From a virus: 21,048 nucleotides of DNA. Under the pieces are notes generated by a model. It saw only the letters and a program-made list of their open reading frames with translations, was not told the DNA's origin and did not search any database. The translations under genes were made by a program, and so were the position numbers. The stretch lies in IMG/VR virus record IMGVR_UViG_3300049830_000305, positions 1 through 21,048 of that record. One strand, written 5' to 3'. Positions 2,160-18,129 of the stretch are shown piece after piece (within the stretch, counting starts at the first letter, position 1; each line of letters starts with the position of its first letter).

Positions 2160-2181
2160 TTGGGCGCAGGTTGGGCGCAAA
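2160..2181 (+). repeat. Dispersed GGGCGC-N5-GGGCGC element, copy a
   Basis: GGGCGC (2162-2167), spacer AGGTT, GGGCGC (2173-2178), followed by AAA. It lies 72 bases after the AraC stop, in the same orientation as that gene. Function unknown; one of seven copies. Confidence 0.7.
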
Positions 2182-2199
2182 CACTCACCACAACGGAAA

Positions 2200-2227
2200 C
2201 GGGGACCAGCACAAAGTCCGGTCCCCG
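2200..2227 (-). terminator. Probable terminator of the Ig-like gene
   Basis: CGGGGACC (2200-2207) pairs perfectly with GGTCCCCG (2220-2227) around a 12-base loop. Read on the minus strand the stem begins 16 bases after the TAA of the Ig-like gene and is followed by TTTCCGTT, a weak T tract. It also lies between two convergent genes and could stop transcription from the AraC side. Confidence 0.5.
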
Positions 2228-2243
2228 TCCGTGGCAGCGGTGC

Positions 2244-2558
2244 TTACGACAGCGTGACAGCAACCGATGCAGGAACATCGACGGTCACAGTGGCTGGGGC
2301 TGCATCATCGGCGATGACGAAAGCATCGGACGACACGGGCGAGCCGATCACAACACCATCGGCATCCAGGCGGACAGCGGACACGGTGTAGGTGCCGGCG
2401 GCCACATCGGGGAAGCTCACATTGGTGTCCACGGTGTCTTGCGACGACACGACGGCGCCAGAGGCATCCACCAGGGCAACGCGGAAGTTACCGGGCACGG
2501 TGCCGTGAGGCGCCTCAGCGGAGGCAAGGGTCAAGACTGCAGAAACGGTTTTGCTCAT
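2244..2558 (-). CDS. Small Ig-like beta-sandwich phage protein, 104 aa
   Basis: Probably a small virion-surface or decoration-type protein; no enzyme motif is present. Residues 1-75 alternate hydrophobic and polar residues in strands, with DVAAGTYTVSAVRLDADG, a signature of carboxypeptidase-regulatory or Ig-like beta sandwiches ('...PAGTYTV...'). The C-terminus is an Ala/Val/Thr-rich strand region. It has no signal peptide. The ATG at 2558 is chosen because GGAG lies six bases upstream; a longer frame to 2588 lacks such a site. The gene stands alone on the minus strand, with its own TGTCGTGACG motif about 53 bases upstream and a hairpin downstream, so it is probably a single-gene transcript. 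The fold is inferred and the role is a guess. Confidence 0.7.
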   Translation of the reverse strand: MSKTVSAVLTLASAEAPHGTVPGNFRVALVDASGAVVSSQDTVDTNVSFPDVAAGTYTVSAVRLDADGVVIGSPVSSDAFVIADDAAPATVTVDVPASVAVTLS

Positions 2559-2612
2559 AGAAGGCTCCAAGAAGATGACAAAAGTCAATCAGGACAGAGC
2601 CCCAACTGTCTC

Positions 2613-2622
2613 GTCACGACAT
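2613..2622 (-). promoter_or_regulatory. TGTCGTGACG motif upstream of the Ig-like gene
   Basis: On the minus strand the sequence reads TGTCGTGACGAGACA, ending about 54 bases before the ATG at 2558. It also forms TGTC...GACA dyad symmetry. The same 10-mer precedes two other minus-strand genes. A promoter or activator site is inferred from position only. Confidence 0.45.
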
Positions 2623-2684
2623 CGAGGACGGTAAAACTTAACGTTTAGCAACAGATGCCAAGGCTGATTAGCACCAGGCCCAAA

Positions 2685-2716
2685 GCCGCGCCAATGCTGG
2701 TTTTTTTCGGCGCGGC
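2685..2716 (+). terminator. GC-rich inverted repeat with T tract
   Basis: GCCGCGCC (2685-2692) and GGCGCGGC (2709-2716) form a perfect 8-bp stem. The 16-base loop contains seven T, and the stem is followed by CCAGTTTTT on the plus strand. It has the form of an intrinsic terminator on the plus strand, yet no plus-strand gene ends nearby. It immediately precedes GGGCGC copy b, so it may be the remnant of a lost gene's 3' end or insulate the methyltransferase promoter. Confidence 0.45.
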
Positions 2717-2725
2717 CAGTTTTTC

Positions 2726-2742
2726 GGGCGCGTATCGGGCGC
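2726..2742 (+). repeat. Dispersed GGGCGC-N5-GGGCGC element, copy b
   Basis: GGGCGC, spacer GTATC, GGGCGC, then AA. It sits behind a hairpin and T run, about 100 bases before the methyltransferase start, in the same orientation as that gene. It is the only intergenic copy not placed after the stop of a same-strand gene. Confidence 0.75.
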
Positions 2743-2787
2743 AACATCTTTTTTGATCACGCAACGTCACGCGATGCTTTAATCAAA

Positions 2788-2793
2788 TATAAT
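2788..2793 (+). promoter_or_regulatory. -10 box of the methyltransferase promoter
   Basis: A perfect TATAAT lies about 50 bases before the ATG at 2842. The -35 region at 17 bp spacing (about 2765-2770, CGTCAC) is a poor match and overlaps a CGTCACG heptamer, so the promoter may need an activator. Confidence 0.5.
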
Positions 2794-2841
2794 CAGTGAC
2801 AACAAAATCCATAGCCACGAAACAACGTGGCTTCACTGACT

Positions 2842-4497
2842 ATGAAATTCGGAAGTGTTTGCTCAGGCATTGAAGCCGCGAGCGTTGCTTGGGATCCACT
2901 TGGATGGAAAGACGCCTGGCTCGCCGAGATTGAAAAATTTCCCAGCGCGGTTCTGGCTCACCACTACCCAGACGTGCCGAACCTAGGCAATATGACAGCC
3001 CTACCCCAGCGCATCCGATCCGGTGAGATTGAAGCACCTGACATTTTCTGCGGTGGCACGCCATGCCAAGCCTTTTCAGTCGCTGGTCTGCGCAAGTCAC
3101 TTGACGATGCGCGAGGCAACCTTTCTTTGACTTTTTGCGAGATAGCCAATGCAATTGACTCAGTTCGATCTGTTCGCGGAGAGCAACCCTCCATCGTCTT
3201 TTGGGAAAACGTCCCCGGCGTTCTCAACACCAAAGACAACGCATTCGGTTGCTTCCTTGCCGGACTTTCCGGCGAAGATGATCCTCTCATCGCGCCAGGG
3301 GGCAAATGGTCGAACGCTGGTCGAGTGCTGGGCCCCAAAAGAGCAGTCGCGTGGCGGGTGCTTGACGCCCAATATTTCGGAGTGGCCCAACGACGCCGAC
3401 GTGTGTTCGTTGTCGCAAGTGCTAGAGGTGGGTTCGATCCCGCCGCGGTACTTTTTGAGCGCGACGGCATGCGCCGGGATTCTGCGCCGAGCCGAGAAGC
3501 GAGGAAAGTCGCTCCCACCATCCCTTCACGGAGCTCTGCGGGCGGTGGCCTTGGAACAGACTTTGACTGCGACGGCGGCCTAATTCCATCGCTGGCGAAG
3601 TGCCTTACAACAGGCACCGCGCTGCGATACGACGCCGACACCGACACCATTTTGCCGGTGGCGCATACGTTGCGCGGCGAAGGCTTTGATGCTAGCGAGG
3701 ACGGAACGGGGCGTGGCACGCCGCTGGTGCCGGTGGCCTGCATCCATGCCGATGCTGTTGGCCGCTCCGGTGAGGCCATCACGCCGAGCCCTGACGCTGA
3801 AGGCCGCATTCGTCTGCGCAACCCGGGCATGGGCCTGATCGAAGACGGGACCAGTTACAACCTGATGGCGTCCGGGCAGCCGCATGCTGTTGTAGCCTTT
3901 GATACCACCCAGATCACCAGCGCAGCCAACTATAGCAACCCGAAGCCGGGCGATGCATGCCACCCGCTTGCCGCAGGGGCGCATCCACCTGCGATTGCTT
4001 TCCACCCCACACAAGACCCGATCAGCAGCACAGACGGGACGACGCACGGTCTGGGGTGCGGTTCGTCTGGCGGGCAGGCGAGCATCGCAGTGGCGGTTGC
4101 CCTGCGAGGTCGCGAGGGTGGCGCGACTGCAGAACTTGGTGACGAGGTGCAGAACTGCCTGCGTGCTTCTAGCGGTGGTGGCGACAAGCCGCACGTTCTG
4201 ACGGCCATGCAAGTGCGCCGCCTCACCCCGCGCGAGTGCGAGCGCCTTCAAGGCTTCCCCGACGACTACACTCTGATCCCATACGGGCGGGCGATCAAGG
4301 CCGAGAAGCTGGAGTGCGACTGGATCAAGTACCTGATGCGCGGTGGCGTGATGACCTTTGAGCAATGCGCTAGGGCGGCGGCGGACGGCCCGCGCTACAA
4401 GGCGCTCGGAAACTCGTGGGCGGTGCCAAACGTGGCTTGGATCGGTCGCCGGATTGATGCCGCTCTGAAGTCACCAGCCACTCAATCTGTTGACTAA
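2842..4497 (+). CDS. C5-cytosine DNA methyltransferase, 551 aa
   Basis: Transfers a methyl group from S-adenosylmethionine to C5 of cytosine in a short DNA target. Motif I FGSVCSGIEAA is at residues 3-13, and the catalytic motif IV GGTPCQAFS has Cys near 75. Motif VI is WENV (121-124) and motif VIII is QRRRR (183-187). Motif IX, LTPRECERLQGFPDDY, is near 460, and motif X, ALGNSWAVPNVAWI, near 520. Between VIII and IX lies an unusually long ~250-residue variable region (TLRGEGF...GTGRGTPLVPVA and similar), the target-recognition part typical of phage enzymes. The start at ATG 2842 gives the usual MKFGSVCSGIE beginning; GTG 2827 is possible and neither has a clear ribosome site. No restriction nuclease is adjacent, so it is probably an orphan enzyme protecting phage DNA from host restriction. 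The target sequence cannot be read from the protein. Confidence 0.95.
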   Translation: MKFGSVCSGIEAASVAWDPLGWKDAWLAEIEKFPSAVLAHHYPDVPNLGNMTALPQRIRSGEIEAPDIFCGGTPCQAFSVAGLRKSLDDARGNLSLTFCEIANAIDSVRSVRGEQPSIVFWENVPGVLNTKDNAFGCFLAGLSGEDDPLIAPGGKWSNAGRVLGPKRAVAWRVLDAQYFGVAQRRRRVFVVASARGGFDPAAVLFERDGMRRDSAPSREARKVAPTIPSRSSAGGGLGTDFDCDGGLIPSLAKCLTTGTALRYDADTDTILPVAHTLRGEGFDASEDGTGRGTPLVPVACIHADAVGRSGEAITPSPDAEGRIRLRNPGMGLIEDGTSYNLMASGQPHAVVAFDTTQITSAANYSNPKPGDACHPLAAGAHPPAIAFHPTQDPISSTDGTTHGLGCGSSGGQASIAVAVALRGREGGATAELGDEVQNCLRASSGGGDKPHVLTAMQVRRLTPRECERLQGFPDDYTLIPYGRAIKAEKLECDWIKYLMRGGVMTFEQCARAAADGPRYKALGNSWAVPNVAWIGRRIDAALKSPATQSVD

Positions 4498-4498
4498 C

Positions 4499-4531
4499 AA
4501 GGCTCGCACCAGTGAAAACTGGTCGGGCCTT
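4499..4531. terminator. Strong two-part hairpin between the methyltransferase and terminase genes
   Basis: Outer stem AAGGCTCG / CGGGCCTT (one G-U pair), a small internal loop, then CCAGT-GAAA-ACTGG with a GNRA tetraloop. It starts two bases after the methyltransferase stop and lies downstream of the convergent terminase gene as well, so it could serve both. No long T tract is present on either side. Confidence 0.55.
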
Positions 4532-4535
4532 GAAC

Positions 4536-4555
4536 TTTGGGCGCGTATAGGGCGC
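4536..4555 (+). repeat. Dispersed GGGCGC-N5-GGGCGC element, copy c
   Basis: TTTGGGCGC, GTATA, GGGCGC: the best match to the consensus. It is 42 bases after the methyltransferase stop, in the same orientation. It abuts the TGA (4558-4556) of the terminase gene on the other strand. Confidence 0.8.
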
Positions 4556-6658
4556 TCAGCGCGCCTTGACGAACAGGACGCAACTCACGTCACGGGCACC
4601 GACCTGCAATTGTCGATCCTCACACATGCCGGTCTCGGGATCGAACGCGCTGCACCGGCCACACACCCCGGATGGCAACTCCTCCATCATGCTGGCCACG
4701 GCCGTGGGCAGACCGTGCATGTTCATCGACTCGGCTTTGCTTCGCATCTCGGCCACCTGTGACCCCCCTTCTGGGATGATGAATGTGCTGGTGCCGTGGG
4801 CCCGCGACCAAGCAACATCGCACAACTGATTGGCGTAGCTGAAATGCGGATCGATTTTGATCTTGCGAACGACGCGCTTGTACTTGTTTGTCGTCGCCTC
4901 TTTGCCCGCAGCATCCTTAACCTTCTCCACCACCAACGCGGTCTTGGTGAAGTGCTCAAACGCCCTGGGTGCTATTGCGGCGCGGCCCTTGACGCCATTG
5001 TCGATCACGTCTTGCGTGAGTTCCTGGGGATCTGGGAACAAGCATGATGGCACCTTTGAGGTGAAGCGGGAGAACGATGCCTGCATGCACTTGAACTGGT
5101 CGGCCTTGACGGTGTAACGGGTTCTGTATTCCTCGTCAGTGCGACGGTCAGATACATCGACCTTGGGCCCATCGCCCCAGTGGACCATGTCATCGGCCAA
5201 TTCACCAAAGCCGTTGCAGAGAAACACGCGTCTTGGGAAGCGAGCGGCGAAGCGCTGGGCCTCATTGAAATTGGGGTTAATTTCGATCACACACACCGCG
5301 ATGCCGTAGTCCGCCATCAACTCATCAAGCCGGGCAAACGGGTCGTCAGAGTAGATTTCCTCAAGATGAATGACGGCCTGGCGCCCATCTGGTAGGCGCT
5401 CCTTGATCACCACGACGTTAAATTGACCCATCTGGTCAACGCCCATGAATGCACCCTGAGCGCGCTTTTTCCATGAAATTCCAGCCAATCGACCAGCCTC
5501 AACGCAATTGGCCATGTGCTCCAGCGTGACGGGTATCTGATCAGGGTCAAGCCAAGGCTTACCAAGCACCCGGTTATAGAAGTTCTTCTTGTCGGTGGAT
5601 GTGATGAACTTGTCCCAAATTTCACTCGGCTCGATCGTTGGTGAGAGCATCTGAGGAAAGTGCGCTGATGTGATCCATGCCTCTGGGTTATCAGCCACCC
5701 ATTCGCCTCGCTGAGGATCATCAATCCAGTGCCCATTGGGACAGACGTAACGGTAAGTCCCAAGTTGGCCCGTCACCTTGTCGTGCGTCTTGGGATCAAA
5801 TTGGATGCTGGCTGGAAAATACTCGTCCAGTGGCGCACGCGATCCACACGTGGGGCACTCAGTGTGAAAACGATGCTGGGTGCCCAACTTGTACCAGTGG
5901 TGGATGTCTGCATCTGGCCAGTTTGCTGTGGAACCCATCAGGTTGTAGCGGTACTTGCTGGCTGAAAGACGCTCACGGGTTTTTTCCATTTGAGCGAGGG
6001 ACATCTCCTGAACCTCGTCAAACGTCAAAAAGTCCATCGGAAACGACTCGGTGGACGCCTTACCTGACGTCCAGGCAAACAAGAACAACGCCTCACCTAT
6101 GCGGCGTCGTCGCACATTGCCCTCACCTTGCTTACGGCCAGATCCGTCAGCTGCATCCTGAGTCATCAGGGAGTAGGCTTCAGGAACTGTTCGCACGATT
6201 GGCATGAACCGTTCTGTCGACTTGCCTTCAGCCAAGGCAATATCAGGTAGGAACATGCCGACCGTGCATGGAGCAAATTTCAGGCCCAAATAGATCGTGG
6301 CCAGCATCTCCATGACCGTGAAACCCACCTGCGTGCACTTCATCAGCACTAGCGTGCGCCTGAAAGCCTGCTCGCGTGTGGATGGGATCTGCTCATAGAG
6401 CCAGGCCATGGCTGGGCGGTCTTCGAGTGTGAACACCTTGCCGTCGACCTTGAGCCCATCGCGGCCCAGCTTCTCGCACCATTGCCTGAACGTCATACCC
6501 TCAGGGATCACATCCTTCTTGTCCAGCTTGAAGCCGGTCTTTTGCTCCAGCGCGGCGATCGCCTGCTGCAGGCCCATGTTGAAGTCAGGCATGGCCCGAC
6601 GGTTGCCACGGCCTAAGCCTGTGGCCTTGTAACCCTTGCCGTTAGGTGCGAAGGCCAT
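4556..6658 (-). CDS. Phage terminase large subunit, GpA family, 700 aa
   Basis: ATPase-nuclease that cuts concatemeric phage DNA and pumps it into the prohead. The ATPase half holds the Walker A-like region LVLMKCTQVGFT (103-114), the GpA-type variant without a classical P-loop. The Walker B strand is MDFLTFDEVQEM (208-219), followed by a motif III-like NLMGSTA (239-245). A zinc-finger-like insert has CPTCG (268-272) and CPNGH (306-310). The nuclease half has MGVDQMG (405-411) and VCVIEINPNFNEA (455-467), with acidic residues in RNase H-like positions. A C-terminal Cys cluster (CGRC near 666 and Cys at 679 and 693) may bind a second metal ion. The length fits lambda-like GpA (about 600-700). 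It starts three bases after the small subunit's stop and converges with the methyltransferase. Confidence 0.95.
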   Translation of the reverse strand: MAFAPNGKGYKATGLGRGNRRAMPDFNMGLQQAIAALEQKTGFKLDKKDVIPEGMTFRQWCEKLGRDGLKVDGKVFTLEDRPAMAWLYEQIPSTREQAFRRTLVLMKCTQVGFTVMEMLATIYLGLKFAPCTVGMFLPDIALAEGKSTERFMPIVRTVPEAYSLMTQDAADGSGRKQGEGNVRRRRIGEALFLFAWTSGKASTESFPMDFLTFDEVQEMSLAQMEKTRERLSASKYRYNLMGSTANWPDADIHHWYKLGTQHRFHTECPTCGSRAPLDEYFPASIQFDPKTHDKVTGQLGTYRYVCPNGHWIDDPQRGEWVADNPEAWITSAHFPQMLSPTIEPSEIWDKFITSTDKKNFYNRVLGKPWLDPDQIPVTLEHMANCVEAGRLAGISWKKRAQGAFMGVDQMGQFNVVVIKERLPDGRQAVIHLEEIYSDDPFARLDELMADYGIAVCVIEINPNFNEAQRFAARFPRRVFLCNGFGELADDMVHWGDGPKVDVSDRRTDEEYRTRYTVKADQFKCMQASFSRFTSKVPSCLFPDPQELTQDVIDNGVKGRAAIAPRAFEHFTKTALVVEKVKDAAGKEATTNKYKRVVRKIKIDPHFSYANQLCDVAWSRAHGTSTFIIPEGGSQVAEMRSKAESMNMHGLPTAVASMMEELPSGVCGRCSAFDPETGMCEDRQLQVGARDVSCVLFVKAR

Positions 6659-6661
6659 CGG

Positions 6662-7336
6662 TTAGACCTTCATCGACATTGTAAAACCCTGCTTTGAATT
6701 CAAATCTGCCAGGCGCTCCATGATGCGGCGCTGACACTCGGGAGACTCTTGGCCGATCTCGTCGATGATGGTCTCGTAGAAGTTTTGCATCGTGCGCAAG
6801 TCCCAAACCTCTTGCACGGCCTTGATGGCGGTCTCCAGCAAGCTGGCCCGGCGCACGATCGACTTGTCAAAGGCCGCCGGGTTGTTGATTTGCTCGACCA
6901 ACGCCCCGGTTTCCGGGTCAGGCCTGGTCTTCATGGCATAGGCACGCAGCTTTTGGGCGTCTGCATAAAGGGCGTGGATTTCAGCCACGAAGTCCAGATT
7001 CTGTAAGCCCGACTCGCCAGTGCGCGCGATGTAGCTCGGGCTGGGGGCGGCCGGCAAATGCTTGGCCACCTTGGTGGTGCCATTCTCCTCGGCCTCGACG
7101 CGCCGCGCATCCTTGGGCAGCTTCTTGACCTTCTGCACCAGCTTGGCTTTGGCGTTGATCAACTCAGGCCGCGGCACGTCCGCTTCTTTGGCCTGCTTGA
7201 TCCAGCGCCACTTGGTGGGCTCGGCCACGTCGGGGAACTGGTCAAGAACAACCTTCCAGTTGTTCGCGCCAACGGTCGACAGATGCTGCGCGACAGCAGC
7301 GAGGAAGGCGGATTTTTGAGGGTGGTCGGTAGCCAT
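6662..7336 (-). CDS. Probable terminase small subunit, 224 aa
   Basis: Expected to recognise the packaging site and recruit the large subunit. The assignment rests mainly on position: it ends three bases before the GpA-type large subunit. The N-terminal 75 residues are helical and basic, with WKVVLDQFPDVAEPTKWRWIKQAK resembling a helix-turn-helix that includes a Trp-rich recognition helix. A long helical middle and C-terminal part (about 110-224) would suit oligomerisation. A TTG 6 bases upstream (7342) is also in frame, but ATG 7336 is preferred. A small hairpin holding the TTCGTGACG motif lies 8-28 bases before the ATG. I am fairly sure of its phage nature and less sure of the exact family. 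Confidence 0.75.
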   Translation of the reverse strand: MATDHPQKSAFLAAVAQHLSTVGANNWKVVLDQFPDVAEPTKWRWIKQAKEADVPRPELINAKAKLVQKVKKLPKDARRVEAEENGTTKVAKHLPAAPSPSYIARTGESGLQNLDFVAEIHALYADAQKLRAYAMKTRPDPETGALVEQINNPAAFDKSIVRRASLLETAIKAVQEVWDLRTMQNFYETIIDEIGQESPECQRRIMERLADLNSKQGFTMSMKV

Positions 7337-7343
7337 GCGCAAA

Positions 7344-7364
7344 TGATAGCGTCACGAACTATCA
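7344..7364 (-). promoter_or_regulatory. TTCGTGACG motif in a hairpin upstream of the small terminase gene
   Basis: TGATAG / CTATCA form a perfect 6-bp stem whose nine-base loop reads TTCGTGACG on the minus strand. This is a variant of the TGTCGTGACG motif seen before three other genes. It ends eight bases before the ATG, so it could affect translation as well as transcription. Confidence 0.4.
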
Positions 7365-7380
7365 CCCATTACTCTCAGGC

Positions 7381-7399
7381 ATGCGCCACATGTGCGCAT
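7381..7399. repeat. Near-perfect palindrome at the end of the broken tail ORF
   Basis: ATGCGCCACATGTGCGCAT is self-complementary apart from one extra C. It begins at the stop codon (7401-7399) of the frame described at 7399-7588. It could be a weak terminator or a protein site before the terminase genes. Confidence 0.35.
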
Positions 7400-8868: not shown

Positions 8869-8877
8869 GTTAGATCC

Positions 8878-9906: not shown

Positions 9907-9937
9907 AGAAAAGGTCTCCTGGTTGTAGGCATGATGC

Positions 9938-9947
9938 CGTCACGACA
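9938..9947 (-). promoter_or_regulatory. TGTCGTGACG motif upstream of the 342-aa tail gene
   Basis: An exact copy of the 10-mer on the minus strand, 32-41 bases before the ATG. It lies 22 bases downstream of GGGCGC copy d; the equivalent gap before the RHS-like gene is 24 bases. Confidence 0.45.
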
Positions 9948-9969
9948 AGGAGGCCTGATCGGGTGACCT

Positions 9970-9989
9970 GGGGCCTATCGGCGCCCAAA
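9970..9989 (-). repeat. Dispersed GGGCGC element, degenerate copy d
   Basis: On the minus strand TTTGGGCGC, CGATA, then GGCCCC; the second half is changed. It lies 65 bases after the stop of the 1260-aa gene, in its orientation. I include it because position, orientation and the first half agree with the intact copies. Confidence 0.5.
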
Positions 9990-10028: not shown

Positions 10029-10050
10029 AGTCATCTGATTGGTTGTCAGA
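10029..10050 (-). terminator. ATCTGA/TCAGAT hairpin just after the large tail gene
   Basis: Directly at the TAA of the 1260-aa gene, the minus strand reads ATCTGA, a seven-base loop and TCAGAT. No T tract follows. It resembles hairpins after the HNH gene (about 18099-18131) and after the 134-aa gene (14178-14192). Confidence 0.35.
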
Positions 10051-13000
10051 TTACGGGTATGACGGGCTGTCTGTGATGTCGTCCAGCGTGTGCGTGCCCT
10101 GCGTGCCATTGTCGTTCACCATGAAGGCTGGATACCCGCCGGTAAGTGGCGACGAGTCGGTGTAGGTCAGCATGGTGGTGCCGTTGCACGTCAGCGTTAT
10201 CACCCCGGCATTGATCTTGAAGATCAGAATCGAGTCGGACGTTGCCGTGAGCGCGCCAGATCCAGAGGTGACGTAAGTCCCGTTGCGGTACAGGTCAAAC
10301 CCGTACGATGCCACCACCACGCGATAGCCTTCTTGGCTGTCCGTGTTTTGCAGGTACATGCGGATGTAGGCCGCATAGGTGGCCGCCTTGCGCGTCAGCT
10401 TGATCCCCTGGTTTGTGCCCTGCCCGTCCACATACCGGATGATGTCGGTGCCAGAGGTGTAAGCGCTGGCCGTTTTCAGCATCTCGCTGGCCACCGTCAT
10501 CTCACCGCCGTTAACGAACTTGGAGCTCACAGCCGACAGCAGTGTCCCGTCGGCCACGCCGGTGAACGAGTAGGTGACCCCGTTGCCGTATGCCGCCGCC
10601 GCACCCGTGAGGCTATTGGACGTGGATGTAGCACTGCCAGCGCCATTTGTGGCCGTCGACGTGCAGGTGATGGCCTGCCCAATGTCAGCGGTCACCACCA
10701 CATAGGTGCTCGAAGTGGCCCCCGAGATGGCCACCCCTGCCCGCTTCCACTGCAGCGTCACTGTGTCCGGGTAGTTGGACCACACTGCTGCGGCGCATGT
10801 CAGCGTGTTGCCTACGCGAGGAGTGCCTGAGATCACCGGAGCGGTAGTGATAGCCGGAAGTGTGGCAGTGGCCGCAATGGTGGTTGCCGCAGTCGTCACT
10901 GTCGTGGATCCGACTGAATTCGTTGCAGTCACTTGGCACGTCAGGCTACCACCTGCTGCTGTCGTGTAGGTGTTGGCGTTGGTGCCGACCGCCGTCGTTC
11001 CCATGTACCACTGGTAGGAATACGACGTTGGGTCATCCAGCCAGGTGCCGGTGGTGACAGTCATCGTCTTGCCTGCCACAGGCGTGCCCGAGATGGTTGG
11101 CAGCGTGACGAGCTCAGGCGCTACGGCCAGGTACTCGAACGCGCCGAGGTCCATGCGCACGCCGTTGGTGGCACGCGCGCCATAACCGGGCACGGAGGCA
11201 AGCGTGTTGTACTGATGGTCCACCTGCAGGTTGGCCAATTGCAGCACGGACGAGGTGCTGTAGCTGGTCGGGAATGACTGCGCCAGGTCGACGCCCGCGA
11301 AGCCATTGGCCGGGACATAGTTTGACTTCAGCACTGGGTCAGTGCCGCGCACCAGTGTGCCGGTGACAGTCACGGTTCCACCAGATGGCGCGGTCAGGTT
11401 GAAATCGCTTTCCACCCAGTTCGTGTCGTTGAACGTCAGATTGCCGTTTTCGAGGATGAAGAAAAGCAGGCTATTTGACGTGCCAGGGTGGTGGAACAGG
11501 TTAGAGCGCAGATCGATGCTCGGTGTCGTCGTCGGGCCCGCATTGACTTGGAACAGGTAGCAGTTCCCGGCAGGGTAGATCTTGTCGATCACCGTGTTGT
11601 TGTAGAAGAACAGCGTGCCCATGCGGGAAGACAGGGAGTTGTTGTCGAACCCCCAGTGGATCATCCGCGTGGAATAGTTCGTGGCCGAGTCGTCGTTAAT
11701 GATCAGGTTACCGTACACCCAGGCATCGTTATACAGAGGATCTGAGCGCACATACGACCCGTATTCCTCCTCGTTTTCGACCAGGTCGATTGCCCGCGCT
11801 GCGGTCATGATCTTGTTGTAGCGAATGACCGTGCCGGAACTGCGGTCTTTGAGCGACGACCCGGTGGCGCCAGAGATCAGGCGATCGATGAAGCAGCCCT
11901 CGATCAGCGTGCGGACGCCCTGTGTGTAGACGTTGTGAATGGTGTCGGCACCAGACACGCCATTGCCGGTGAAGTTGCACCCGCGCAGCGTGATGTACTG
12001 AGACCAGTCGGTGTCTGAGGTGCCGCGACTGTTGGTGAAGATACCCAGGCCATTGCCCGTGATGTCGCAATACTGGATCGTCAGGTTGCTCACGCGGATG
12101 GCATAAACCGCAGCACAGAAAGATTGGTAGGCCGTCAGCGTGCCCGCCGTGTTGTAGAAGCTCTTGGTGGGGTGAGCGTTGATCAGCTGCAGGTTCTGGA
12201 TGGTGATATAGGCCGGCGTGTTGTCGGTGCCGATTGTCTTGTAAATTGAGATCAGGCCGGCCGTCTCGATGCCATAGTAAGTGAACCAGCCCGCTGCCAC
12301 CGCATCAGCCGCCGTGACAGCGCCGGAGCCCGTGATGATGGGCCGGTTGCCATTGGCGTCAGTGACCCCGTTGATGATGATGGGGTTCGCGGCCGTGCCC
12401 ACGCAGGTCAGCGCGAACTTGGTGGCGTAGGGTGTAGCCTGGTAGAAAATGTTCACCACGCTGCCAGGCGTCAAGCTCAGCCACGGCACAGACGTCAGGT
12501 CCGTATAGGTCTTGCCTGGTCCAACATCGTAGCGCGTGCCCGAGCCGGTGGCATTCAGTGGGCTCGATGACACGGATGTGGTCGGCAGCGATGTCAGCGG
12601 TGCCGGTGGCCAGTTTTGCGCGAAAGCGGCAGCCAGTGCGGACGCAGCAGCAACCGTGCCTGTGAACGTCAGGGAATACGCCGTACCGTTGTAGGTGTAG
12701 TTGATCGTGACGGTCGGGAAGGCCCCGGCGGTGGTACCCGCAGCAATGGACCATGCACCAGCGGAGGTGATGGTGACGGTGCCAGCGGAGGCGGTGGCAG
12801 TGGCGCCGGCCGCAAAGGTGCCTGTCACGCCAGAGACTGTGAACGTGGTGACAGTGGGAGACCCGCCAGATGTAACGCCGGTGAAGATGTTGCCCGACGT
12901 GGTGGCGCCGTTGGTGAGCGAGTACGTGCCCGTCGTCGCGCTGCTGGTGGCCGTCGTGCTGCCCGTGGTGTTGGTAGCGGTCACCTTGACCTTGATCGGC

Positions 13001-13833
13001 ACACCAACATCATAGGCCGTGGCCACATAGGTCGCCGACGTCGCGCCCGAGATCGGCATGTCGCCGCGGTACCAGGCGTAGGTGTAGCTCGATGCATACG
13101 TCCATGTGCCCGTGGATGCCGACAATGTCGCGCCAGATGACACGGTGCCAGAGATGGTCGGCGCAACGGTGTTGACTGGCTGGGGCAAAGCCACGGTCGT
13201 GCCGGCCGATGTCGCAGCAGACGACGAACCGCTGGTGTTGGTGGCCACCACCGAGACGGTCAGCGAGGTGCCAGCGTCAGCCGACACACACACGTAGGTA
13301 GACGAAGTCGCGCCAGAAATAGCCGTGCCAGCCCGCTTCCATTGGTAGGTGTAGCCCGTTGGGCTATTCGACCATGTGCCGGTAGACGCGCTCAGCGTGC
13401 CGCCTACCGTGGCCGATCCTGTGATGGCGGGCAGGACTGAGTTCGTTGGAATACCTGGGACAGTCAGCGCATTGGACACGACAGCCACAAACCCGTAGGC
13501 GTTGGTCGCCGTGACTTGGCAGGTGATGGCCAGGCCAATGTCGGCAGACACCACGGTGTAGGTCGCCGAGGTGGCGCCCACTATCGATGATCCACCGCGA
13601 AGCCACTGGTAGGAGTAACTGGTCGGCAGATTCGACCAGGTGCCATTTGTCGTGGAAAGCAACTGACCAAGATTAGGCGTGCCGCTGATCACTGGTGCCG
13701 TGGCGTTTGCGGGAGGTGAGCCACCACTGTTACCCACGATGATGTTGCCGCTCGCATCAACGACATTGCCGCCGACGATGACGGCCACGCCCATGGATCG
13801 GGCCTTGGACAGGTCAACTGGTGTGAAGCTCAT
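10051..13833 (-). CDS. Giant multidomain tail protein: Ig-like, beta-helix, Ig-like, LamG-like; 1260 aa
   Basis: Probably a tail fibre or spike that contacts the host surface. After a ~40-residue N-terminal anchor with VIVGGNVVDASGNIIVG come three Ig-like repeats (about 42-306). These share PxISGT...L....GTWS..P..YxYQW.R...I.GATS.TY and end in VTATN. A further beta module covers about 307-398. A right-handed beta-helix follows (about 430-900), opening with YDVGPGKTYTDLTSVPWLSL and continuing with NIIING- and YNK-type rungs. Two more Ig-like repeats (about 905-1080) and a C-terminal LamG-like jelly-roll (about 1085-1260) end the protein. Ig-like domains on both sides of the helix suggest weak carbohydrate adhesion around a binding or depolymerase core. 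No catalytic residues can be assigned. Its start follows the RHS-like gene's stop by 12 bases, so the two are co-transcribed. Confidence 0.9.
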   Translation of the reverse strand: MSFTPVDLSKARSMGVAVIVGGNVVDASGNIIVGNSGGSPPANATAPVISGTPNLGQLLSTTNGTWSNLPTSYSYQWLRGGSSIVGATSATYTVVSADIGLAITCQVTATNAYGFVAVVSNALTVPGIPTNSVLPAITGSATVGGTLSASTGTWSNSPTGYTYQWKRAGTAISGATSSTYVCVSADAGTSLTVSVVATNTSGSSSAATSAGTTVALPQPVNTVAPTISGTVSSGATLSASTGTWTYASSYTYAWYRGDMPISGATSATYVATAYDVGVPIKVKVTATNTTGSTTATSSATTGTYSLTNGATTSGNIFTGVTSGGSPTVTTFTVSGVTGTFAAGATATASAGTVTITSAGAWSIAAGTTAGAFPTVTINYTYNGTAYSLTFTGTVAAASALAAAFAQNWPPAPLTSLPTTSVSSSPLNATGSGTRYDVGPGKTYTDLTSVPWLSLTPGSVVNIFYQATPYATKFALTCVGTAANPIIINGVTDANGNRPIITGSGAVTAADAVAAGWFTYYGIETAGLISIYKTIGTDNTPAYITIQNLQLINAHPTKSFYNTAGTLTAYQSFCAAVYAIRVSNLTIQYCDITGNGLGIFTNSRGTSDTDWSQYITLRGCNFTGNGVSGADTIHNVYTQGVRTLIEGCFIDRLISGATGSSLKDRSSGTVIRYNKIMTAARAIDLVENEEEYGSYVRSDPLYNDAWVYGNLIINDDSATNYSTRMIHWGFDNNSLSSRMGTLFFYNNTVIDKIYPAGNCYLFQVNAGPTTTPSIDLRSNLFHHPGTSNSLLFFILENGNLTFNDTNWVESDFNLTAPSGGTVTVTGTLVRGTDPVLKSNYVPANGFAGVDLAQSFPTSYSTSSVLQLANLQVDHQYNTLASVPGYGARATNGVRMDLGAFEYLAVAPELVTLPTISGTPVAGKTMTVTTGTWLDDPTSYSYQWYMGTTAVGTNANTYTTAAGGSLTCQVTATNSVGSTTVTTAATTIAATATLPAITTAPVISGTPRVGNTLTCAAAVWSNYPDTVTLQWKRAGVAISGATSSTYVVVTADIGQAITCTSTATNGAGSATSTSNSLTGAAAAYGNGVTYSFTGVADGTLLSAVSSKFVNGGEMTVASEMLKTASAYTSGTDIIRYVDGQGTNQGIKLTRKAATYAAYIRMYLQNTDSQEGYRVVVASYGFDLYRNGTYVTSGSGALTATSDSILIFKINAGVITLTCNGTTMLTYTDSSPLTGGYPAFMVNDNGTQGTHTLDDITDSPSYP

Positions 13834-13845
13834 CGCGCAGGCCCT

Positions 13846-14055
13846 TTATTGCTTGATCCAAGCAGACTCAGCCGTCATCTGGCCAGCGTTGTTGTAGGTG
13901 TAGGTTTTCACCCAAGACGCCGCATGATTGGCACTGACAGCCGTGTCGGACACCATTCGACCATTCGCGTCATAGGCGTAGGTGTGGCTGCACGAGCTCA
14001 ACGGAAACTCGTTCCCATTGTTGTCGATCTCTACCCGGATTGAATTGGTGCTCAC
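13846..14055 (-). CDS. RHS/YD-repeat-like mini-protein, 69 aa
   Basis: A very small protein built of two YD repeats: HTYAYDANGRMVSDTAV (about 24-40) and KTYTYNNAGQMTAESAW (about 50-66). The repeat is the one that builds RHS and teneurin shells, normally present in dozens; two copies cannot form a shell. It is directly upstream of the 1260-residue tail protein, so an accessory role in that fibre is plausible, for example as chaperone or tip. The start is GTG 14055, with only a weak GGGGGC upstream. The start codon lies in the arm of a hairpin (14053-14085), which could hold translation down. The gene has its own upstream control spacer with terminator, GGGCGC element and TGTCGTGACG motif. The repeat is visible; the function is unknown. 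Confidence 0.7.
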   Translation of the reverse strand: MSTNSIRVEIDNNGNEFPLSSCSHTYAYDANGRMVSDTAVSANHAASWVKTYTYNNAGQMTAESAWIKQ

Positions 14056-14085
14056 TGGCAGGCCCCCGATTTACAAGGGCCAGTG
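14053..14085 (-). promoter_or_regulatory. Hairpin enclosing the GTG start of the RHS-like gene
   Basis: CACTGGC (14053-14059) and GCCAGTG (14079-14085) are perfect 7-base arms; the GTG start is the end of one arm. The loop holds the purine-rich GGGGGCC. It could modulate translation initiation. Confidence 0.35.
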
Positions 14086-14088
14086 TCA

Positions 14089-14098
14089 CGTCACGACA
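14089..14098 (-). promoter_or_regulatory. TGTCGTGACG motif upstream of the RHS-like gene
   Basis: An exact 10-mer on the minus strand continuing as TGACA, 34-43 bases before the GTG start. It is 24 bases downstream of GGGCGC copy e. Confidence 0.45.
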
Positions 14099-14119
14099 TT
14101 GGAATGCTGCAAGGTCGGG

Positions 14120-14140
14120 TTTGCGCCCTACCCGCGCCCA
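14120..14140 (-). repeat. Dispersed GGGCGC-N5-GGGCGC element, copy e
   Basis: On the minus strand GGGCGC, GGGTA, GGGCGC, AAA. It directly follows the T tract of the terminator at 14140-14172 and lies 56 bases after the stop of the 134-aa gene, in the same orientation. Confidence 0.8.
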
Positions 14141-14172
14141 AAAACAAAAAACGCCCCAGATTGTGGGGCGTT
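14140..14172 (-). terminator. Strong intrinsic terminator after the 134-aa gene
   Basis: A perfect 9-bp stem AACGCCCCA / TGGGGCGTT (14150-14172) with a five-base loop is followed on the minus strand by TTTTTTGTTTTT. This ends the long operon of small genes before the tail genes begin. Confidence 0.9.
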
Positions 14173-14177
14173 GGCGG

Positions 14178-14192
14178 GTCAGATCATCTGAC
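14178..14192. repeat. 15-bp perfect palindrome just after the 134-aa gene
   Basis: GTCAGAT-C-ATCTGAC lies two bases beyond the TAA at 14195. Shared TCAGAT/ATCTGA pieces recur in the spacers after the HNH gene and after the large tail gene, hence it may be part of a common end-of-unit signal. Confidence 0.5.
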
Positions 14193-14194
14193 TG

Positions 14195-14599
14195 TTACTC
14201 TGTTTTCGCGTTCAAGCCGGTCAGAGCGGCGTCGTCGGCGGTGACCTCGGGCGCAGGCTGGCTTTCCTTTTTCGCCTGATCCTGCTGGTAGGGCATCCAA
14301 TAGGCGTAGCCGCCAATGATCTTGCCTTCAGCGTCGCGGCCTGGTTCCTCGCCGGGCTGCAGCAGCGTGACCGATGTCTTGGCGAAGGGTCGGCCGCAGA
14401 TGTCCAGAACGTTGACGTTGATGCACTTATCGCCCCACACGGCCAGAATGGTCGCATCCAGGGGCTGCACAGTGTGGTCGCCGTCCAAGTTGCCAGCGAT
14501 CACCATTTGACCAACGCCGGTGACGTCGTACTTGCTCGGGCGGTAATAGACCTTGCGGCCCACGGTGGGTTTGATGACTTGGGTCATATCAGCTTTCAT
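14195..14599 (-). CDS. Phage hypothetical protein, 134 aa
   Basis: This resembles a family of small soluble phage proteins beginning MTQVIKPTVGRKV, common in prophages of Burkholderiales, with no assigned function. The first 85 residues form an SH3-like beta barrel pattern (VYYRPS..., QPLDATILAVWGDKCINVNVLD, PFAKTSVTLLQPGEE). The tail is Ala/Gln/Lys-rich and disordered. Two starts are possible: ATG 14599 and ATG 14587; the second has GAAAG five bases upstream and matches the usual family start. It is the last gene before the strong terminator. A GCCGGC-ATCCG-GCCGGC hairpin lies just before 14599. Confidence 0.75.
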   Translation of the reverse strand: MKADMTQVIKPTVGRKVYYRPSKYDVTGVGQMVIAGNLDGDHTVQPLDATILAVWGDKCINVNVLDICGRPFAKTSVTLLQPGEEPGRDAEGKIIGGYAYWMPYQQDQAKKESQPAPEVTADDAALTGLNAKTE

Positions 14600-14667
14600 G
14601 ATGTTGCCGGCATCCGGCCGGCTCGGTACTTACTCAATCGAGGCCAGTGGCCGAAACCGGAAAAACT

Positions 14668-14922
14668 TTACAAAGCGCGGCCTGCACCGGGAAGCGCGTA
14701 GTTTCCATCATGGCGGGGGTACAGGTGGATAAGGCCCATGCGTTCGATGCGCTCCATGTAAAGCTCGCGCTCGCGTTTGTGCCTGAACTCTTTTTTCACC
14801 ACCAGGCACTCAGAATGCCTGACACCGTACAGCCTGACCAACATGTGAGCATCGATGTGGTGGATCTGTCCATCGCGCTTGCTGGTGACTTGGCCCGGGT
14901 GCAGGGCGTATTTCGCGCTCAT
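14668..14922 (-). CDS. Small phage protein, 84 aa
   Basis: This is a type often seen in Burkholderiales phages: YALHPGQVTSKRDGQIHHID followed by MLVRLYGVRHSECLVV. It has a short beta part, one helix and a basic KEFRHKRERELYMERIERMG tail. The function is unknown. Its ATG overlaps the upstream stop as ATGA (14919-14922). The next gene follows after a 68-base spacer without any other feature of note. Confidence 0.7.
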   Translation of the reverse strand: MSAKYALHPGQVTSKRDGQIHHIDAHMLVRLYGVRHSECLVVKKEFRHKRERELYMERIERMGLIHLYPRHDGNYALPGAGRAL

Positions 14923-15362
14923 GCCGTCGCTCCCGTCGCCTCACGGATCGACACCGCTGCGTGCTGGATGGCCGCCACGCTGGCCTTGCGGATGATCTCC
15001 TTGGCCCGGGTGCATGCCACTTGGAAGGTGACGATGTCGACCTCGTCGATGACGCCGCCGGCTTTGCCACAGCTTTCAATGGTGCTGATCGCGCCGCGGA
15101 TCGTGCGCAGTTCTGGCGTGTCGACCGTGCCGCCGTCGTGCACATGGCAGAAGCCCGCGATCGTCAGCAGGATGGCCAGGCCCGACAGTGTCCGGTGCTG
15201 CGCCTCGCCCAGGTTCAACCAGGCGCGCGTCTCGTCGGCCTGCAGCGAGTGGATCCACAGGGCCCGTGCTTTTTCGGACTCGTCGTTCAGTCGGTCTTGC
15301 CGGCGCGTCTCGTCGGTGCTGGCGCCGGCGGTGCCTCGGGCGATGAAGTTGAAGATGTTCAT
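14919..15362 (-). CDS. Phage hypothetical protein, 147 aa
   Basis: I do not recognise a family. The first 35 residues are charged and helical (DETRRQDRLNDESEKARALW). One hydrophobic stretch, LSGLAILLTIAGFCHVH (about 59-75), is too polar at its end to be a confident membrane segment. The rest is helical. Both ends overlap neighbours by ATGA, at 15359-15362 and 14919-14922, placing it firmly in the co-translated run. Confidence 0.7.
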   Translation of the reverse strand: MNIFNFIARGTAGASTDETRRQDRLNDESEKARALWIHSLQADETRAWLNLGEAQHRTLSGLAILLTIAGFCHVHDGGTVDTPELRTIRGAISTIESCGKAGGVIDEVDIVTFQVACTRAKEIIRKASVAAIQHAAVSIREATGATA

Positions 15363-15592
15363 GGTGTGGGGGTGTTGGTGCTGGCCTGAATCAGACCCGC
15401 AATCTGTTGCTCTGGTGCAGTTTCGCTAGGGAGATCTTGCGTGTCTGTGTGCTTTGGGCGCGTATTGGGCGCACCAAGGATCGGGGCGTCGGCTGGAAAC
15501 ACCTCGTGAAGGGGATCAGCTTCAACGGACCGAAATATGCCGATCAACTCGCCGTCGACATAGAACCCAACGTCTTTTCTGGTGTACTTCAC
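15359..15592 (-). CDS. Phage hypothetical protein with GGGCGC copy f inside its 3' half, 77 aa
   Basis: The chosen GTG start at 15592 overlaps the preceding stop (GTGA); a longer frame back to 15652 runs inside the upstream gene. Residues 1-35 (YTRKDVGFYVDGELIGIFRS) form a neat beta hairpin unit. Residues 36-77 are Pro/Thr-rich and look disordered. GAPNTRPK in the tail is encoded by copy f of the dispersed element, read antisense. The tail may therefore have been acquired when the element landed here. Function unknown. Confidence 0.65.
   Translation of the reverse strand: MKYTRKDVGFYVDGELIGIFRSVEADPLHEVFPADAPILGAPNTRPKHTDTQDLPSETAPEQQIAGLIQASTNTPTP
15456..15472 (+). repeat. Dispersed GGGCGC-N5-GGGCGC element, copy f
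   Basis: GGGCGC, GTATT, GGGCGC, preceded by TTT. It is the one copy inside a coding sequence and the only one opposite to the surrounding transcription. No hairpin precedes it. Confidence 0.75.
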
Positions 15593-15888
15593 GGCATGTC
15601 CCTCCCGATGGCGATGGCGGCGCGGAAGATGGCGAGGCGGGTGGCGGCGCACGGGTCGTCGCCAGGCAGTTCCTCGATGTCAACGATGCAAAACTTACGG
15701 ACCAGGATGCCGACGCGGCCAATGGTCAACAGAAGGCCCAGCGCCACCGCCAGCCGCAGCGCATCGCCGTCGTCGTCGAGTGGGTTCCAGTTCATAGGCA
15801 AACCGTTTGGAGAAACGTAGCCGACGCCGTCATGCTCAATCCCAGCAGCCTTAGCCGCCATCTCGTAGTCGGAGCGCGTGAAAGTCAT
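15589..15888 (-). CDS. Small phage protein, 99 aa
   Basis: A soluble protein of a type common in phage small-gene runs: DYEMAAKAAGI, then WNPLDDDGDALRLAVALGL. The helical repeats around DDDGDALRLAV suggest an acidic helical bundle. The function is unknown. ATG 15888 overlaps the upstream stop as ATGA, and its own TGA overlaps the next GTG start. Confidence 0.75.
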   Translation of the reverse strand: MTFTRSDYEMAAKAAGIEHDGVGYVSPNGLPMNWNPLDDDGDALRLAVALGLLLTIGRVGILVRKFCIVDIEELPGDDPCAATRLAIFRAAIAIGRDMP

Positions 15889-16325
15889 AGCGTGCCCCTT
15901 GCGCGTATGGCGTCGATGATCTGTTCGCCGGCCACCACCAATTGATCACGAACGCCCGTGCCACGGCGAAGCGCATCCTCGGGGATGCCAGTGCGGCGCT
16001 GAACGATCTGCACGCACGCCTCGCGCTCGTCCCTTACCGCCTTGGCCTTCGCAAGATTACCCTCCAATCCAACGCGAGCAATGCGGGCCTTAAGCTCCTC
16101 GTTTTGCAATTGCGCGGTCGTTCTTGCCTCGCGCTCGTCGGCCACAGCCTCGGCGATGCAAGCCTCGCGACTGGCATCGTTGGTGAGGTACTTGCCAGAG
16201 CGGACCAGGAAGTCTTCGATGACCAAGGCACGAAAGCGCTCCAGTGCCGCGGCCATGTCGCCAGAGGCCGTGATGCCAGCCTCAAAAGCCAAGCGGCTCA
16301 GGCGGTCGATGTCGGCGGGCGTCAT
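15885..16325 (-). CDS. Coiled-coil phage protein, 146 aa
   Basis: No family is recognised. The N-terminal 45 residues are a compact helical unit. From about residue 52 to 115 runs a long amphipathic helix rich in Glu, Ala and Arg (ADEREARTTAQLQNEELKAR and on), consistent with a coiled coil and oligomerisation. The start overlaps the upstream stop as ATGA (16322-16325) and the end overlaps the next start. It may be a scaffold-like or regulatory accessory protein, but nothing in the sequence decides this. Confidence 0.75.
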   Translation of the reverse strand: MTPADIDRLSRLAFEAGITASGDMAAALERFRALVIEDFLVRSGKYLTNDASREACIAEAVADEREARTTAQLQNEELKARIARVGLEGNLAKAKAVRDEREACVQIVQRRTGIPEDALRRGTGVRDQLVVAGEQIIDAIRARGTL

Positions 16326-16513
16326 ACCTTGCGCCCCCGCTTCGACAGCGGCGCACCAGGCAGCGTGCCACGGGCCTGCTTGGCCACGGCATCATCGGCG
16401 GACTTCATCGCCTCCTTGCGCTGGCGGGTGCGCGTCGCCGAGATCTTGCTTTCGCGCAGCATGTCGCCCGTGTCGATCTTGGGCTTGTAGCCGGGGCTGA
16501 ATGCGTTGGTCAT
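16322..16513 (-). CDS. Small basic phage protein, 63 aa
   Basis: A short, strongly basic and helical protein (RESKISATRTRQRKEAMKSA) with a Gly/Pro/Lys/Arg tail ending KRGRKV. It may bind nucleic acid. It begins 17 bases after the zinc-ribbon gene's stop and overlaps the next gene by ATGA. Function unknown. Confidence 0.65.
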   Translation of the reverse strand: MTNAFSPGYKPKIDTGDMLRESKISATRTRQRKEAMKSADDAVAKQARGTLPGAPLSKRGRKV

Positions 16514-16529
16514 AGGTGTTGGATGATGA

Positions 16530-16751
16530 TCACCGGGATGCGCCCGGCACGCGCTTCAACAATTTGCGCTCAGCCGCTGTGCAATGTCCGCAAGTCTTGC
16601 GTCCTGCCAGCAACTGGCTTTCGTGTATGGAGGCGAAGCGACCGCACACGCACCAGCATGACCATCGGGCACCAGGGCCGGCCTTGTAGCGCTTGAGCGT
16701 GATCAGGCTTCCGATCCGCTCGCCTTCTTCCATGGTGTCATTATGAATCAT
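16530..16751 (-). CDS. Single-module zinc-ribbon protein related to the HNH gene's repeats, 73 aa
   Basis: One copy of the module that occurs three times in the HNH protein encoded at 18130-19056. A hydrophobic start (IGSLITLKRYKAG) leads to WSCWCVCGRFASI, a LLAGRKTCGHC closing pair and a basic tail. The four Cys (C-x-C-x-C type plus CxxC) would hold a zinc ion, and DNA binding is likely. ATG 16751 is supported because it overlaps the stop of a 29-codon gene just upstream (ATGA). It may be the remnant of a second HNH gene, or a stand-alone DNA-binding domain derived from such an enzyme. Confidence 0.7.
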   Translation of the reverse strand: MIHNDTMEEGERIGSLITLKRYKAGPGARWSCWCVCGRFASIHESQLLAGRKTCGHCTAAERKLLKRVPGASR

Positions 16752-16837
16752 TTTTGATCATTTGTGTCTGTGTCACGCGAAGATGGTGCGCCGAAAATGA
16801 TCATCCACCAGATGCGGGGGAGAAGGAGGAAAAGCAT
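16748..16837 (-). CDS. 29-residue hydrophobic membrane peptide (short ORF)
   Basis: A very short gene between the metallopeptidase and zinc-ribbon genes. The peptide starts MLFLLLPRIWWMIIFGAP, a hydrophobic segment long enough to sit in the inner membrane, followed by a polar tail (SSRDTDTNDQK). Three features support it. A GGAG ribosome site lies seven bases before ATG 16837. The start follows the upstream stop by only two bases. Its TGA overlaps the next gene's ATG in ATGA, so it fills an otherwise unexplained 88-base gap in a run of coupled genes. It could be a holin-like or other small phage membrane protein, or merely a leader peptide that couples translation. Confidence 0.55.
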   Translation of the reverse strand: MLFLLLPRIWWMIIFGAPSSRDTDTNDQK

Positions 16838-16839
16838 GG

Positions 16840-17373
16840 TTAGGCTCCTGCGGCAGTGGCCGCTTTGATGAAGCCGGCGATGTCGGGCGTCCATGCCCCA
16901 TAGCGCTCGACTTCTGAGTTGAAAGCAGTGATGTCGTGCTCAACCAGGGCCCACACAGGCAACCCGTCTTTGTCGAAGCGCGGCGCACCGTACTTGTCCA
17001 GCGCTTGGCGAACGTGCGCCAGTTCGTGCCAGATCAGGGCCTCGCGCTGCATGTCGCTGGCCTGTTGCCACCACCCCGCATCGAGCACGATGACAAACTC
17101 GGGCAGATCACCAAGCATGCCGGCCAGCAGCTGCATGAACAGGTCTTTGAATGCACCTTGCGCCATGTTCTTGACGGCGTGCACGCTGCCAAGCTCCATT
17201 TTCCCGCCCTTATCCTTTTGATCCAGGCGCATGAGCCAGCCGAACCGCACCTCGTTGTCACCAAGGTGCTGGTGCACCTGGTGCTTCATGAGGCGATGCG
17301 CGATGGTGGCCGGATGCGTTACGTCTTGGCCTGGTAGCCGAAAGGCCTCGAAGGGGTCGATGTCGTCGATCAT
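16840..17373 (-). CDS. Putative phage metallopeptidase, 177 aa
   Basis: Belongs to the putative phage metallopeptidase family (zincin-like). The zinc-binding helix REALIWHELAHVRQ has HELAH at 116-120, and a further acidic/His group EHDITAFNSEVERYG (145-159) would provide the third ligand. The N-terminal part (residues 35-75) holds strands such as VRFGWLMRLDQKDKGG. The substrate is unknown; these proteins sit in regulatory regions of many phages. It has no signal peptide, so it acts in the cytoplasm or the virion. It is in the coupled run, 15 bases after the HTH gene's stop, with no clear ribosome site. Family call is good; activity is inferred. Confidence 0.85.
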   Translation of the reverse strand: MIDDIDPFEAFRLPGQDVTHPATIAHRLMKHQVHQHLGDNEVRFGWLMRLDQKDKGGKMELGSVHAVKNMAQGAFKDLFMQLLAGMLGDLPEFVIVLDAGWWQQASDMQREALIWHELAHVRQALDKYGAPRFDKDGLPVWALVEHDITAFNSEVERYGAWTPDIAGFIKAATAAGA

Positions 17374-17388
17374 GGTGTCAGTGTGGCG

Positions 17389-17799
17389 TCACGCCTTCCC
17401 GAACAGTGCGGCCGTCAGCGGATCGCGCTGCACCTTGGCACGCGCCGCCCGCTTGGCATGGATCTCGTCAAGCGCCCGCTCGGGGTTGTTCGCCCTGCTT
17501 TTCCGCTTCTTTTGCGCGTTGCTCATGACCATGGGACGGCGCTTGTTTGGAAGATCCCCCACCAGATAGATCGGGGTTGGGCTGCCTGGGCTATTGCGTC
17601 GCCAGTCGTGGATATGGATTTTCCTGGGCGCCTCAGTCATCAGCGCCAGCAGGTAGGCATGCATGGCATTTTTGCTGATGCTGAGGGCCTCGGCCAGTTC
17701 ATCGCGCGTGTGTGGCAGTTTCAGCAACTCCATGACCTTGACCATGCGCGCCTGGCTGGCCTCGTTCCTGAACGTGTAGTTTTGGTAGTGCAGAGTCAT
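17389..17799 (-). CDS. Winged helix-turn-helix phage regulator, 136 aa
   Basis: Likely a DNA-binding regulator. Residues 18-55 form the HTH: MVKVMELLKLPHTRDELAEA, then LSISKNAMHAYLLALM. The wing is about 58-82 (KIHIHDWRRNSPGSPTPIYLVGD). A basic tail (NAQKKRKSRANNPERALDEI) may add DNA contact. ATG 17799 overlaps the upstream stop as ATGA; a longer frame to 17832 would extend into the neighbour and is not preferred. The protein is close in style to HTH proteins found in many Burkholderia-type prophages next to the metallopeptidase, as here. Its target genes cannot be read from the sequence. Confidence 0.8.
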   Translation of the reverse strand: MTLHYQNYTFRNEASQARMVKVMELLKLPHTRDELAEALSISKNAMHAYLLALMTEAPRKIHIHDWRRNSPGSPTPIYLVGDLPNKRRPMVMSNAQKKRKSRANNPERALDEIHAKRAARAKVQRDPLTAALFGKA

Positions 17800-18023
17800 G
17801 GTGCTGCGAACATGTCGATGGTTTGAGTGCACGGCACGACGACCGTGGTCTTGCTTGCCGTGACCAGGTCAAGCTCGCCCTGAGATGCCGATCGCCGGCC
17901 ACCAATGAGGCCTTGCTTGAGCGCGCAGACAGGCCCGACGGGTAGCCCCTTGAGCAAAGCCGCGGCGCGGTCCAGTGGCCTGCGGCAGACAGCGCACGTC
18001 ATGCGGTGAGGTTGCTTACTCAT
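17796..18023 (-). CDS. Small zinc-knuckle phage protein, 75 aa
   Basis: A short protein with MTCAVCRRPLDRAAALLKG and then PVGPVCALKQGL. Cys at 10, 13 and 33 suggest a zinc knuckle or ribbon completed by a fourth ligand such as His 6. Members of this kind are frequent in phage small-gene runs. ATG 18023 is chosen because an in-frame extension to 18089 would read through the GGGCGC spacer element. Its stop overlaps the HTH gene's start. Function unknown. Confidence 0.7.
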   Translation of the reverse strand: MSKQPHRMTCAVCRRPLDRAAALLKGLPVGPVCALKQGLIGGRRSASQGELDLVTASKTTVVVPCTQTIDMFAAP

Positions 18024-18129
18024 ATTCTGGTATTTGAGCCCTATGTGCGCCCTAACTGGATGCCGCACGCCCGGAAACTCAATAGACAATGGGTTTTGAT
18101 GAATAGATCATCTGACTACAAAGCTGATT
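18024..18129. other. Spacer after the HNH gene
   Basis: It contains no gene. It holds an ATCTGA...TCAGAT inverted repeat starting at the HNH stop and a degenerate GGGCGC element (copy g) shortly before the zinc-knuckle gene. The right part is A+T-rich like the HNH gene. Confidence 0.5.
18036..18052 (-). repeat. Dispersed GGGCGC element, degenerate copy g
   Basis: On the minus strand GGGCGC, ACATA, GGGCTC, then AAA; one base of the second half differs. It lies 77 bases after the HNH stop, in the same orientation, and 13 bases before the next ATG. Confidence 0.55.

Follow-up and report, generated by a model that had tools for sequence, protein, structure and literature searches.

The window analyzed here is a 21,048-bp viral contig, which constitutes the whole of its record. 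Its plus strand carries an AraC-type regulator gene (1224-2090; PF12833) and a C5-cytosine DNA methyltransferase gene (2827-4497; PF00145), and the gene for the terminase large subunit lies on the minus strand (4556-6658). The terminase shares 61% identity with its counterpart in Pseudomonas phage Dolphis, which places the contig in the Dolphis/PHB04 group; its terminase relatives, Dolphis and others, have genomes of 86-96 kb. Farther along, gene 10051-13833, which lies between two of the sites described below, encodes a 1260-aa protein in which Ig-like segments recur around a central part; this protein is perhaps tail-associated. The translation of gene 18130-19068 shows repeated Cys-x-Cys-Gly motifs and an HNH-like C-terminus.

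A tandem hexamer pair, GGGCGC-N5-GGGCGC, recurs along the window. Exact matches were found on the plus strand at 2162-2178 (spacer AGGTT, 3' of the AraC-type gene), 2726-2742 (GTATC), 4539-4555 (GTATA, 3' of the methyltransferase gene) and 15456-15472 (GTATT), and on the minus strand at 14123-14139 (GGGTA). Two degenerate copies, both on the minus strand, are located at 9970-9986 (GGGCGC-CGATA-GGCCCC, two mismatches) and 18036-18052 (GGGCGC-ACATA-GGGCTC, one mismatch). All seven had been placed correctly in the first-pass annotation. Five exact matches compare with 0.01 expected from 100 dinucleotide shuffles; with two mismatches allowed, 16 were observed against 7.7 expected, and the degenerate copies therefore carry little weight on their own. 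The methyltransferase gene, lying between two of the sites, is a candidate cassette. Five copies had been described as lying 42-77 bases past a stop codon in the same orientation, and we measured 41-77 bp for those at 2162, 4539, 14123, 9970 and 18036. The exceptions are the copy at 2726, whose left neighbor is on the other strand, and that at 15456-15472, which is antisense to the neighboring genes and falls within a called ORF; either this ORF is not a real gene, or the module is inverted.

The hexamer pair is real but proved to be half of a larger element, the other half of which, a core approximately 74 bp upstream, had been overlooked. Aligning the flanks on the motif revealed this second conserved block, a 5-7-5 inverted repeat (e.g., CCTGA-TACGGAA-TCAGG) with the pattern [CA]C[TA]GA-N7-TC[TA]G[GT], positioned at about 74 bp from the hexamers or one helical turn nearer or farther; no GTTRRRY consensus was seen in the conserved core. 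Among 107 scattered copies from 19 genomes, the dyad occupied positions -77 to -73 in 68, compared with 0.19% of random positions per such window, and positions -66 to -62, one helical turn nearer, in a further nine, while the other core-to-arm spacings differed in steps of about 11 bp. The stop codon of the upstream gene often falls within the core. A perfect IHF consensus lies between core and arms in 4.4% of copies (0.1% of shuffles), leaving most copies without one, and clear IHF-like sites are limited to about 13%.

Within the window, perfect (5/5) dyads precede the copy at 2162 (ACTGA-TACTAAA-TCAGT at 2086-2102, plus strand, -76), where the TGA stop of the AraC-type gene lies inside the core, and the copy at 9970 (TCTGA-CAACCAA-TCAGA at 10034-10050, minus strand, -64), where the core directly follows gene 10051-13833. 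Dyads of 4/5 accompany the copy at 15456 (TCAGA-CCCGCAA-TCTGT at 15391-15407, plus strand, -65) and that at 18036 (ACTGA-TCTGAAA-TCAGC at 18123-18139, minus strand, -87, one helical turn farther); the latter core spans the stop codon of gene 18130-19068, and a second 4/5 dyad is present at -61. The remaining three of the seven cores are weak (3/5) and were assigned tentatively: ACAGA-TGCCAAG-GCTGA for the copy at 2726 (2651-2667, plus strand, -75), CCAGC-CACTCAA-TCTGT at the methyltransferase gene end for that at 4539 (4474-4490, plus strand, -65, one helical turn nearer), and ACAGA-GTAACAG-TCAGA, spanning the stop codon of gene 14195-14599, for that at 14123 (14187-14203, minus strand, -64).

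The same motif is widespread among the related phages. Relatives encoding an arm-domain integrase typically contain 3-12 copies per genome, with 5-12 exact copies each in Dolphis, Jeremy, PHB04, ST4 and many IMG/VR contigs of 90-96 kb, and their spacer between the hexamers is almost always NNNT[AC]. Reversed-pattern controls gave nearly zero matches in these genomes. Apart from the copies at attP, 89 of 96 are intergenic, and the gene upstream mostly runs in the same direction; distances to a same-strand stop codon peak sharply at 70 bp (median 71). Terminator-like hairpins frequently lie directly before the hexamers, and a site follows the AraC-type gene in the Dolphis, PHB04 and ST4 orthologs as it does in the window. 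The relatives fHe-Yen8-01, T5282EW and Mecenats66 contain no copy, and a de novo search of the terminase relatives for other arm hexamers returned no new hexamer. In the one host genome scanned, a 4.9-Mb Microvirga assembly, 9 of the 14 matches were located in a 94-kb prophage and five elsewhere. The earlier description of a phage-specific, oriented element, with tandem half-sites one helical turn apart placed after genes, was borne out.

A probable identity for the element was suggested by the phage attachment site. At attP, which adjoins the integrase gene, the same GGGCGC hexamer pair is found on either side of the attP core. A Microvirga lupini assembly, in which contamination is possible, contains a prophage of the Dolphis/PHB04 group, a group familiar from Pseudomonas phages, in tRNA-Arg(ACG) (L280:4773-4849), with ends marked by a 51-bp direct repeat and one hexamer pair near each end, split as predicted from the parts of attP. 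The host tRNA-Arg core, CCAGA-CTACGAA-TCTGGGGGTCA, fits the pattern of the scattered cores, and three scattered cores of G011 continue TCTGGGGGTC exactly. A scattered site thus resembles one prophage end, consisting of core, spacer and tandem arms. Scattered core half-sites also tend to fit the attP of their own genome: only 6 of 720 permutations fit as well, the agreement being clear for G019, ST4, G006 and the tRNA-Arg group and failing for PHB04 and G004.

The N-terminus of the integrase is the Pfam domain Arm-DNA-bind_3 (PF13356), and PF13356 together with PF00589 was found in the relatives. In ST4, G004, G006 and G012, PF13356 is retained while the remainder is a different integrase (28-31% identical overall), and all four have GGGCGC sites. 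Conversely, the seven terminase relatives without PF13356 (three isolates and four long contigs) contain no copy, or one with a non-matching spacer. In Touem01 and G024, GGGCC[CT] pairs occur at attP and at scattered places alike. Judged from these genome sequences, the motif tracks the integrase arm domain, even across replacement of the catalytic domain; the window phage itself presumably encodes such an integrase outside the 21-kb fragment. Integrases in which the arm domain is kept and the core-binding and catalytic parts come from another integrase family were observed at L190:33293-34462, L147:12662-13864, L160:3592-4764 and L176:7688-8872.

Comparisons between genomes break at the cores. 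G002 and G005 have in common a 917-bp methyltransferase segment, 83% identical and embedded in unrelated flanks, which starts at the right half of a core and stops at the right half of the following one, so that both of its ends lie at cores. At one site, Dolphis and Jeremy show unrelated sequence upstream and become near-identical from the first core bases on, two G007/G009 sites break at the core in the same manner, and one G009 site resembles a hybrid of two G007 sites. In alignments with an identity of 78% or more, nine starts of downstream homology lay within -40 to +60 of a core, and all of them fell at -20 to +3; most were counted from both partners, and they thus represent approximately five independent junctions. 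The tally comprises one two-ended cassette and three one-ended junctions, and a search of 268 sequences for further two-ended cassettes with differing flanks returned only the G002/G005 case. Other viral contigs contain relatives of the methyltransferases of G002 and of the window (the C5 enzyme); among those inspected, composite sites were present only at the G002 and G005 loci. At sites, 21 of 263 comparisons retained the downstream neighbor, compared with 58 of 227 at nearby site-free gaps, although these comparisons are non-independent; site-bearing regions are variable anyway, and the compared genomes are themselves non-independent. A histogram of low-identity homology endpoints was uninformative as breakpoint evidence, because homology stops at gene ends everywhere, and in pairwise flank identities over all site pairs the global-alignment baseline of 0.61 swamped the signal, so that only base-level cases were used.

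The site architecture, the match to attP, the co-variation with the integrase and the breakpoints at cores, all of them features of sequence, point to an attachment site. We consider it probable that each hexamer pair forms the arms of an integrase attachment site, used by the tyrosine integrase that the phage itself encodes, and that these sites bound mobile gene cassettes; integrase binding, catalysis, any circular intermediate, the exchange frequency and recombination itself are what we infer from these features. In full, the site would comprise a core (a 5-bp half-site, a 7-bp overlap and an inverted 5-bp half-site) positioned at a gene 3' end and often spanning the stop codon, then a spacer of about 56 bp, which in a minority of copies contains an IHF-like bend site, and finally the two tandem GGGCGC hexamers one helical turn apart. 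PF13356 would contact the arms, binding and cleavage of the core would fall to the core-binding and catalytic domains, DNA bending would help the integrase to hold arms and core together, and strands would be exchanged within the core overlap. A cassette would begin with the right half of a core and end with the left half of the following one, and could thus be inserted, lost or swapped; the upstream gene would be unharmed, as its stop codon would be restored.

Lambda-type recombination normally requires equal overlaps. Here the overlaps vary between sites within one genome and are unequal between the partners at G002/G005 and at one G007/G009 junction. This variation could stabilize the array, but it also counts against strand exchange between the unequal sites. 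The unequal overlaps at two junctions, the position of breakpoints within short shared blocks and the exonuclease VIII-like genes encoded by these phages would all suit passive boundary linkers, through which phage homologous recombination (a RecE-like exonuclease and annealing) swaps modules while the integrase acts at attP only. We regard this as unlikely, as it leaves unexplained the complete integrase site, its absence where the integrase is absent and its joint change with attP, and as the breaks are located at the core, not at the longer and more conserved hexamer pair.

A regulatory role is similarly improbable. A repressor, or the integrase itself, might bind the tandem hexamers and stop or control transcription between modules, with the copies at attP serving autoregulation; the agreement of orientation with transcription, the position after stop codons, the hairpins before the hexamers and the retention of the site by the AraC-type gene in several phages are in keeping with this. 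Mycobacteriophage stoperators, to which the immunity repressor binds so that transcription stops (PMC6550527, PMC9283540), likewise recur in a set orientation within the short intergenic gaps of a temperate phage. Unlike stoperators, the site described here is composite, with a recombinase core, and matches attP. An operator would not be expected to have a constant core upstream that matches the core of attP, to switch sequence at attP and at scattered places together, or to have breakpoints at that core. In addition, the repressor-like gene rep50 is present also in motif-free relatives, and no repressor among the candidates compared tracked the motif. For this reason, together with the core and the breakpoints, the stoperator or repressor operator was rejected as the main reading. 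Of the two roles suggested in the first-pass annotation, the stoperator-like repressor site thus found no support, as a recombinase core accompanies the copies at helically phased spacing, as copies bracket the attP core and track the arm-domain integrase, and as genome comparisons break at the core; the other suggestion, that of module-boundary sequences, is supported.

The sites of P2 Cox and 186 Apl are direct repeats about one helical turn apart, in attP and elsewhere, as are the hexamers. It is nevertheless very doubtful that the element serves an excisionase-type protein that directs excision and regulates transcription as these do, even with an HTH_17-like protein encoded within the same gene block, since that protein was undetected in the site-bearing G007 and G009 and since the element, unlike Cox and Apl sites, is joined to a recombinase core at gene 3' ends and tracks the integrase arm domain.

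Returning to the attachment-site reading, we lean towards the view that in the temperate Dolphis/PHB04 phages the phage-encoded lambda-type integrase, besides serving lysogeny, builds and reshuffles an array of accessory-gene cassettes, each ending in a one-armed site at a stop codon; such a cassette system would be previously undescribed. The acquisition of single accessory genes (morons) at gene ends in temperate phages is an old question, usually credited to illegitimate recombination. For such gains the present proposal names a particular enzyme, a particular site and exact boundaries, which makes it directly testable in a Pseudomonas putida phage, and it would allow cassettes to be delimited by sequence. 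The cassette array would also offer a reason why the integrase keeps its arm domain while the catalytic domain is swapped, because the whole array would depend on that domain.

Integrons have been described in phages, with IntI-type attC sites (PMC9892861). As with integron cassettes, the sites lie at gene 3' ends, mostly in one orientation, and the units, which include methyltransferase cargo, may be movable. Unlike integrons, the enzyme is a prophage-type integrase with PF13356, at a tRNA attP, and the defining IntI is absent; the core is presumably double-stranded and is accompanied by arm sites, and multi-gene units occur. No IntI-type attC sites were found. These comparisons suggest that the element may work like an integron but is built from different parts. 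Within the open PMC literature searched, no description of prophage-integrase sites scattered at the ends of cassettes came to light.

In lambda attL, the order is core, the IHF site H' and the arm sites P'1 and P'2, and the IHF bend lets the integrase bridge the core and P'1-P'2 (PMC4880445). The element resembles it in the order of core, spacer and arms, the 7-bp overlap between inverted half-sites, the tandem arms and a two-domain integrase with an arm-binding N-terminus, and thus appears to possess most of the sequence features of a lambda-type attachment site. Unlike lambda, which has one attP, these phages carry many copies per genome at gene ends, with varied overlaps. The right part of the Dolphis attP (L126:40380-40580) contains additional GGGCGC hexamers at a spacing of 12-13 bp, some of them inverted.
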